Source of the DNA: Candidatus Roizmanbacteria bacterium RIFCSPHIGHO2_02_FULL_37_13b
GTDB lineage: Bacteria > Patescibacteriota > Microgenomatia > UBA1406 > HO2-37-13b
Direction: 5' to 3'
DNA length: 45,869 nt
NCBI GenBank assembly: GCA_001789395.1
Contig: MFZK01000014.1
Coordinates: 1-45,869, forward strand
Positions within the stretch are counted from its first letter, which is position 1. Each line of letters starts with the position of its first letter. Below, one piece after another: positions 28,047-31,328 of the stretch. Made by a program: the position numbers and the translations under genes. Below the pieces are notes generated by a model. The model saw only the letters and a program-made list of their open reading frames with translations. It did not search any database and was not told the DNA's origin.

Positions 28047-28724
28047 TTACCATTTATTTAAATATTTAACTGTTTCCAAGGTTTTTTGATATTCCGCGTT
28101 TGATAATACGAAATTTTTATATTTATTTTTATCGTTATTAAAAATAGATATTATATCTTTTTGAATGGTTAGCTTATTTGTATTTTGGTAAATATATTCT
28201 TTTAACGAAGACCAAGGATAATTTATAAGTTTTTCGCAATTATCAACTAAGCCATTACTATATGGGTTAAGATGTATATATCTACTGACATGTAGAAGTT
28301 GAGCTTCGTTCGTTATCATAACTGATTTGAAATCTGGTAAAAAAACGGGACCTTTTCTTTCAATTTTTAAGTTAAAATGTCGTGTAAAAGCATTAAATAA
28401 ATCTCCCATAAATTTTGATATACCTTTATCCTTTTTTTGTTTAAGTAAAAAATGGAAATGATTTGGCATAAAGCAATAAGAAAGTATTTCAACACGAAAA
28501 GAACGTCGGCAAAGTATTTTTTTTAGATAGTCTTTAGCAACGATGGGATTTAAACGAATAAATTGTGAATAGCCAAATTTAACTTCATTTGATCGATAAT
28601 ACCGTATTAAATTCAGTAGTTGAATACAATTATTGTCGTCATTGAAGACAAGTCTATGGTCAATAGTTTTATTAAATACATGATAGATTCCGTTGTTGAC
28701 AAAAGGTTCTAAACGCAGAGACAT
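28047..28724 (-). CDS. REP-associated tyrosine transposase (RAYT), Y1/IS200-like HUH enzyme (225 aa)
   Basis: A single-domain HUH transposase of the TnpA-REP type. The His-x-His metal motif is in 'YCFMPNHFHFLLK', and the conserved 'SRYIHLNPY' block carries the tyrosine expected to act as nucleophile. Adjacent 'GPVFLPDFKSV' and 'NYPWSSLKEY' blocks are standard for this family. RAYTs are domesticated relatives of IS200 that act on REP hairpins; the two REP-like palindromes on either side fit. Length and motifs look intact, so the enzyme may be active. It has its own promoter. Confidence 0.9.
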   Translation of the reverse strand: MSLRLEPFVNNGIYHVFNKTIDHRLVFNDDNNCIQLLNLIRYYRSNEVKFGYSQFIRLNPIVAKDYLKKILCRRSFRVEILSYCFMPNHFHFLLKQKKDKGISKFMGDLFNAFTRHFNLKIERKGPVFLPDFKSVMITNEAQLLHVSRYIHLNPYSNGLVDNCEKLINYPWSSLKEYIYQNTNKLTIQKDIISIFNNDKNKYKNFVLSNAEYQKTLETVKYLNKW

Positions 28725-30758: not shown

Positions 30759-30786
30759 TTGATTTTTTGATATATTTTTGTATAAT
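30759..30786 (+). promoter_or_regulatory. Promoter of the leader RNA and DUF2294 gene
   Basis: TTGATT (30759-30764), 16-nt spacer, perfect TATAAT (30781-30786). The start would be near 30792, leaving a leader of about 147 nt, unlike the leaderless genes around it. Confidence 0.7.
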
Positions 30787-30791
30787 AGAGG

Positions 30792-30911
30792 CTGATCGTT
30801 GTATTTTGGTCGACATTAAAAAGATCTATCGAAAGATTGTTTTATTGTAAACCAGCAAAAATCTTATTATCAATTTTCAGGACTGATAAGAAGAAAATGC
30901 TGGTTTTTTTT
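30792..30911 (+). ncRNA. Structured leader or small RNA ending in an intrinsic terminator
   Basis: From the predicted start near 30792 the transcript reaches a long hairpin: AAACCAGCA (30849-30857) pairs with TGCTGGTTT (30898-30906), with an inner stem TTATCA/TGATAA (30867-30872/30884-30889) and an 11-nt loop. Eight Ts (30904-30911) follow. This is the best intrinsic terminator in the window, located 27 nt before the DUF2294 ATG. AAGATT (30833-30838) could instead pair with AATCTT (30860-30865), a possible antiterminator. It may be a stand-alone RNA of about 120 nt or a read-through switch; it matches no RNA family I know. Confidence 0.45.
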
Positions 30912-30938
30912 GTCTCGTAGATTCAGGTTTGAATCATT

Positions 30939-31328
30939 ATGGAAATAGTACCGACAAAAGGACAAATAGAAGATAAAATAAGCAAAGGCGTAACCAAGTT
31001 TTATGTAAAATCATTGGGGGTTGGTCCTAATCAATCAAGATCATATCTTCTTCAAGACATGATCATTATTCGGCTCAAGGGTAAGCTTCTGCCAATTGAG
31101 GAGACATTACTCGACGGACACCGAGGTGTTCAGCTAGTCAAAGATCTACGTAAAGCACTACACGAAGCAACTATTGATGGCATAAGTGCTCTTCTGAAGA
31201 AAATTACGAAACATACTGTATTAAGTTCACATTCAGACATCAGTACGAAGACCGGAGAGATTGTTCAAGTATTTGTCATGGATGCAAATTTGGATAAACA
31301 GTTTATAAACAAAGAACCTTTAAGGTAA
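30939..31328 (+). CDS. DUF2294 / MpsC-like domain protein (129 aa)
   Basis: A small soluble protein. The order of motifs matches DUF2294 (PF10057, now linked to MpsC of the membrane-potential-generating system): an N-terminal 'KGQIEDKISKGVTKF', 'GVGPNQSRSYLLQDMIIIRLKG', then a C-terminal 'SSHSDISTKTGEIVQVFVMD' (read as short motifs). In Staphylococcus MpsC belongs with MpsA and MpsB; no partner is seen near here, so the role may differ. It has a long leader with a terminator-like hairpin and repeats upstream, which suggests conditional expression. No Shine-Dalgarno is visible. Confidence 0.75.
   Translation: MEIVPTKGQIEDKISKGVTKFYVKSLGVGPNQSRSYLLQDMIIIRLKGKLLPIEETLLDGHRGVQLVKDLRKALHEATIDGISALLKKITKHTVLSSHSDISTKTGEIVQVFVMDANLDKQFINKEPLR

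Follow-up and report, generated by a model that had tools for sequence, protein, structure and literature searches.

What does the structured leader RNA in front of an mpsC/DUF2294 gene do in Candidatus Roizmanbacteria bacterium RIFCSPHIGHO2_02_FULL_37_13b? The leader occupies positions 30759-30938 of a 45,869-nucleotide stretch of DNA (contig MFZK01000014.1; hereafter the window), which belongs to a genome of 1.16 Mb in 23 contigs. A sequence-only reading of the window had proposed either a new small RNA of about 120 nt or a transcription switch for a gene connected with membrane potential or ion handling. Here, comparison across related genomes strongly supports the reading as a putative transcription switch. 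From the sequences compared, the leader is probably a cis-acting transcription attenuator that would act as an 'ON' switch for mpsC.

Promoter-like site, predicted terminator and gene at the locus

The leader and the gene behind it comprise the following features, of which the switch hairpin is defined by covariance model R1, the pair counts and the element table.

30759..30786, + strand: sigma-70-type promoter-like site, with TTGATT at 30759-30764, a 16-nt spacer and TATAAT at 30781-30786
30808..30853, + strand: conserved switch hairpin P1-P2-P3, the candidate ligand- or protein-binding domain
30808-30810 / 30851-30853, + strand: P1, GGU with ACC
30811-30812 / 30849-30850, + strand: internal loop IL1, CG opposite AA
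30813-30821 / 30840-30848, + strand: P2
30822 / 30839, + strand: internal loop IL2, A opposite G
30823-30827 / 30834-30838, + strand: P3
30849..30911, + strand: intrinsic terminator, with a 9-bp stem of AAACCAGCA (30849-30857) and TGCTGGTTT (30898-30906), an inner hairpin and U8 (T8 at 30904-30911)
30902..30904, + strand: 3' GGU of the terminator, competing with the 5' GGU at 30808-30810 for the ACC at 30851-30853
30939..31328, + strand: mpsC/DUF2294 gene (129 aa, PF10057), the candidate regulated gene, followed by oppositely oriented genes

The promoter-like site is present as the sequence-only reading had described it, and the transcript start is predicted near position 30793. Since shuffled versions of this region contain sigma-70-like sites about as often (28.6 expected versus 31 observed), we weighted the promoter call by conservation in relatives alone. 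All 14 leaders compared carry a -10-like box 1-23 nt 5' of the conserved element, and most of them match the -35 box at no fewer than 4/6 positions.

The long hairpin with its T8 was likewise found, separated from the ATG (30939) by exactly 27 nt. The predicted terminator has a folding energy of -16.9 kcal/mol, where shuffles average -7.8 (z -3.4; 1/200 shuffles as good), and the whole leader also folds better than shuffles (z -3.1). Our automated terminator scan of the window did not call this terminator because the loop limit of the scan is 8. As the gene upstream of the leader is divergent, the terminator does not belong to that gene. The assignment of the downstream gene to DUF2294 holds as well, with the protein matching PF10057 at 100.9 bits (cut-off 23; 5.7e-29). 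Elsewhere in the window, positions 28047-28724 of the minus strand encode a Y1/IS200-like transposase family protein (PF01797).

Occurrence of the leader across Patescibacteria

Conservation upstream of DUF2294 in relatives, on which the sequence-only reading had staked its proposal, was observed: the leader precedes mpsC in 14 Patescibacteria, from two families of the window's order and from family f18 of the same class. Not counting the window's own gene, a search of 144 related genomes yielded 19 clear mpsC homologues, of which one is a fragment. The same leader layout lies upstream of the window mpsC and of 11 of the 19 homologues; at one further homologue (G031) only 14 nt of contig precede the gene, so that its leader cannot be judged. 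Seven homologues have no leader, and mpsC thus does not require it.

Covariance-model searches gave a consistent picture. Model R1 found a single real site in the window genome (57.7 bits, E 4.6e-10), an apparent second copy (20.1 bits) being this site read on the reverse strand. Across the order (83 genomes) it returned 12 strong sites (E ≤1.2e-6), all before mpsC, with the rest at E 0.01 or worse, and in the class sample (373 genomes) it returned the same kind of match and one in the further family f18, both mpsC genes of which carry complete leaders. The retrained model R2 recovered the two mpsC leaders among 73 f18 genomes, together with one weak match inside a helicase-like gene, and matched the window and G172 alone in the phylum sample (380 genomes). 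Genomes are shared among these order, class, phylum and f18 samples, and whenever a search covered more than 40 genomes its filters were stricter, at the cost of weak matches. The mpsC gene itself is rare, occurring in 12/373 genomes of the class and 2/380 of the phylum. No mpsC was found in viral contigs.

Several weak hits were inspected and rejected: the model matches L056:4310-4361 and L073 fall within coding sequence, and a pattern match in a viral contig (L074) lies inside a nucleotidyltransferase-like gene. Besides these inspected hits, the order search returned weak matches at E 0.01-0.08 in G035, G039, G069, G016 and G037.

Credible copies of the element thus occur once per genome and solely before mpsC in the genomes searched, ending 17-82 nt upstream of the gene on the same strand, whatever the upstream gene. 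Because the element always lies in cis at this short distance, the small RNA of about 120 nt once proposed is at most a terminated by-product. A free RNA of about 119 nt, with incidental read-through into mpsC, would account for the leader's own promoter-like site, compact fold and strong terminator. It would leave unexplained the fixed position and the lack of any credible copy without mpsC in the genomes searched, and it is hard to see what purpose a hairpin sharing strands with the terminator would serve in such an RNA. We consider this explanation very improbable.

Leader presence is clustered on the protein tree, with 3 changes compared with a shuffled mean of 6.6, on a tree with few well-supported branches; this pattern is consistent with one early gain of the leader and some losses. 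A neighborhood of cysS, ssb and a peptidase S41 gene is common to a subset of the mpsC loci, while the others differ and are mostly unrelated. In one genome only (G048; L057:5994-7346, minus strand), a gene for an MgtC/DUF4010 family membrane protein stands convergent beside mpsC.

Structure and covariation of the switch hairpin

By hand segmentation of the leaders, we identified the same element in 14/14 Patescibacterial sequences, with the order GGU-NR-P2-purine(+optional base)-P3-loop-P3'-(optional base)G-P2'-AN-ACC. The hairpin is 43-59 nt long, the helix between the two internal loops measures 8-10 bp, and the window and 11 relatives have the common sequence layout GGUNGAC...GUANACC.

For part of the covariation count we used an alignment that had itself been fitted to the structure. 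This alignment shows changes on both sides at 9/16 modelled pairs, and 85% of its cells are paired, compared with 78% in shuffles (0/500 as high) and 30-49% in slid registers. In a MAFFT alignment of 12 sequences made with no model fitting, the signal is weaker than in the structure-fitted one: 81.9% of the cells are paired versus 77.0% in shuffles (1/500 as high), and the covariation score was reached in 3/500 shuffles. The 3-bp P1 (GGU/ACC) is invariant, and since it never varies, covariation lends no separate support to its pairing.

Specific unpaired bases are nearly invariant. Counting the Anoxybacillus hairpin described below, the 3' A of IL1 is found in 15/15 sequences, the 5' G of IL1 in 14/15 and the 3' G of IL2 in 15/15. 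A conserved, structured domain in which unpaired bases hardly vary is expected of a riboswitch, and the leader has one.

Mutually exclusive folds of hairpin and terminator

The terminator is conserved as ACCAGC...GCUGGU-U7 in 13/14 leaders. Its 5' strand includes the ACC that closes P1, and because both structures require ACC 30851-30853, P1 and the terminator exclude each other. The conserved pairing that competes with the terminator is that of the GGU at 30808-30810 with this ACC, and not the AAGATT/AATCTT pairing suggested from the window alone: those letters exist, AAGATT in the P3 hairpin and AATCTT in the variable loop of the terminator, but they are not conserved. In the 13 terminator-bearing leaders, the free, terminated fold is favored over the P1-forced fold by 2.6-7.0 kcal/mol (3.9 in the window). 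As the unforced molecule prefers the terminated fold, this arrangement suits a switch that is OFF by default and turned ON when P1 and its loops are stabilized. An expression platform that is mutually exclusive with the conserved domain is present in 13/14 Patescibacterial leaders and at the Anoxybacillus site.

The fourteenth leader, in G053 (L061:6739-6818), keeps the switch hairpin and has no terminator, with the ATG about 20 nt after ACC. Attenuation as drawn here cannot run in this leader, since the terminator is missing, and it possibly reflects a different output mechanism or decay. ACC persists in G053 and also in G042, where the final stem base of the terminator is changed so that it ends in GGC, which argues that ACC is retained for P1 too. 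The leader of G068 (L058:3888-3950) has a duplicated terminator arm, with the 22-nt unit AACCAGCAGAGCTGTGTTGAAG occurring twice and followed by the final AACCAGCAGAGCTGGTT terminator hairpin.

These observations also bear on whether the leader is a mere terminator, insulating mpsC against upstream transcription or attenuating it constantly with no sensing. In favor of this, the upstream gene runs in the same direction as mpsC at 8/13 loci with an identified upstream gene, but it is divergent at the window and four others, and a promoter-like box separates it from the terminator. This reading does not account for a separate hairpin upstream with conserved unpaired bases, or for the survival of that hairpin in the terminator-less G053, and we regard a simple insulator as improbable.

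The DUF2294 protein and its Bacillota neighborhoods

The AlphaFold2 model of the window MpsC is a confidently predicted alpha/beta structure with a mean pLDDT of 87.9. A search of this model against the PDB gave no significant match, RNA-binding or other (none at E <0.001). The top fold matches, TRAPPC3, H-NOX and B. subtilis YslB, reach E values of 0.02 or worse and TM-scores of about 0.4, and were not accepted; we take these three proteins to share one ligand-binding fold superfamily, and the weak matches hint at a small ligand-binding fold for MpsC. DUF2294 proteins are not consistently basic, with a pI of 5.4 in G172, 5.8 in Anoxybacillus and 9.5 in the window.

The connection with membrane potential or ion handling that was drawn from the window goes back to the family name and appears weak. 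In S. aureus, deletion of mpsC is without phenotype and the gene is dispensable for MpsAB function, and co-location of mpsC with mpsAB is reported for staphylococci only (PMC6689103). MpsB/DabA (PF10070) was found in 0/77 genomes, the window's own included, and SbtA is absent from the window genome and the sampled relatives. The sole paper naming DUF2294 in our literature search was unrelated.

Additionally, we compared five Bacillota DUF2294 loci on plasmid records, one of which, on Anoxybacillus amylolyticus pDSM15939_1, has a structure-level match to the element. The hairpin lies directly after the DUF2294 stop codon and before a gene for a PF05982 Na+/bicarbonate transporter (SbtA). It consists of GGU, a CG/AA loop, an 8-bp P2 of wholly different sequence, an AA/AG loop, a 6-bp P3 and ACC, and it overlaps a very stable U8 terminator, after which come a ribosome-binding-like site and the transporter gene. 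The covariance-model score of the site is weak (15.5 bits, E ~0.11). A structural descriptor gave 0 matches in 2.7 Mb of Markov-shuffled sequence, while in 752 kb of real strands it returned six mpsC leaders and the Anoxybacillus site. As this descriptor was written after the site had been seen and recovers under half of the true leaders, the match is suggestive only. On this single example, the site may represent the same element.

No copy was found at the DUF2294 loci of Acetoanaerobium, Staphylococcus, Bacillus badius and Priestia, or at the SbtA loci of Arthrobacter and Haliscomenobacter. The neighbors of plasmid DUF2294 genes (L076-L079) are DabA in Staphylococcus pettenkoferi, SbtA in Anoxybacillus, and fdhD in Bacillus badius and Priestia megaterium, so that inorganic carbon or formate forms a theme of these plasmid-borne Bacillota neighborhoods. 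Two records deserve separate mention. Anoxybacillus NZ_CP015439.1 carries a second, unrelated structured leader before DUF2294 (L077:2318-2500; about -65 kcal/mol) with a terminator-like hairpin and no convincing Rfam match on its own strand. The Acetoanaerobium noterae 'plasmid pTPELB2' (NZ_CP154629.1; L075/L083), at 2.63 Mb and with 4 features listed, is probably a chromosome.

Comparison with known RNA elements

The window leader is unmatched in Rfam at the gathering threshold, and up to E 10 it yields chance matches to snoRNA, miRNA and sRNA families only; at permissive thresholds, no riboswitch was found at 11 related loci. The ribonucleic antiterminators (RATs) recognized by BglG, SacY and LicT are hairpins of about 30 nt, closed by GG.../...ACC and containing two internal loops with conserved bases. 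Our element resembles them in this closing sequence and in its two loops with conserved bases, and in a hairpin 3' strand that doubles as the 5' strand of an intrinsic terminator (PMC9981650). Unlike a RAT, it is 43-59 nt long, has an 8-10-bp helix separating its loops and adjoins no sugar-uptake gene. The RAT-binding domain CAT_RBD (PF03123) was not found in the window genome, in a search that passed the cut-off in 4 control genomes.

Ion-sensing 'ON' riboswitches such as Na+-I (DUF1646 motif) share with our element a short aptamer 5' of a terminator and target genes nominally tied to cation or bicarbonate transport. The leaders have no Rfam riboswitch match, and we presume that the Rfam library includes the Na+-I family. 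The Na+-I model differs from the element in its conserved bases, which lie at the bottom of P1 and in the P2 loop (PMC9337991). Orphan riboswitch candidates (e.g. PMC11109978) likewise combine a structured covarying leader, an expression platform and a narrow gene association, but our element occurs in Patescibacteria and is tied to DUF2294; the main text of that paper mentions neither DUF2294 nor SbtA nor Patescibacteria. The element thus would act like a RAT or an ON riboswitch. We rate it as a putative new family of antitermination leader, which may conceivably have been listed before under another name.

Proposed mechanism and effector

These features suggest how the leader may work; we infer its operation in cells, its ON polarity and its effector. 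RNA polymerase would start near 30793 and make the P1-P2-P3 hairpin (30808-30853) first. By default, the terminator strand would then invade the weak 3-bp P1 and pair with the same ACC, and transcription would stop at U8 to give an RNA of about 119 nt. With an effector stabilizing P1 together with both conserved internal loops, ACC would stay occupied, so that the terminator could not close and mpsC would be transcribed.

A small molecule or ion sensed by a riboswitch is our leading candidate for this effector, at somewhat under an even chance. The conserved internal loops, the lack of a consistent basic charge on the protein, the missing match to an RNA-binding fold and the mpsC homologues without the element all point in this direction. 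Inorganic-carbon or Na+ status is the best guess for the sensed signal, and a weak one.

Within the same leader architecture, the DUF2294 protein itself may instead bind P1-P2-P3 and block termination in the manner of BglG, LicT and SacY. In Patescibacteria it would thereby regulate its own gene, and in Anoxybacillus the neighboring bicarbonate-transporter gene. Such a role would fit an element found solely beside DUF2294, with no credible copy in a DUF2294-free genome among those searched, and a GGU...ACC hairpin overlapping a terminator in the layout of a ribonucleic antiterminator (PMC9981650); the location between DUF2294 and the transporter gene in Anoxybacillus is likewise the position of an antiterminator target. 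The range of pI values (5.4-9.5), the predicted fold with no significant PDB match, the seven element-free homologues and the failure to find PF03123 in the window genome speak against it, and we hold the protein to be an unlikely, though serious, candidate. The evidence is compatible with a riboswitch and with a DUF2294-dependent antiterminator alike, and the remaining probability falls to other factors or none.

It is a doubtful extension of the riboswitch reading that a new riboswitch class spans Patescibacteria and Bacillota, with this leader as the first of its branches to be seen. Such a class would respond to inorganic carbon (CO2/bicarbonate) or to a coupled ion such as Na+, turning on DUF2294 and bicarbonate-transporter genes.

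Regulatory RNA in Patescibacteria has hardly been studied, as far as our literature searches show. The leader offers a compact candidate switch before a conserved protein family with no assigned function, described by covariance models and giving clear mutational predictions. If the Bacillota copy ahead of a bicarbonate-transporter gene is real, the element would give practical access to what DUF2294 does, and to a possible inorganic-carbon sensor made of RNA or of RNA and protein.
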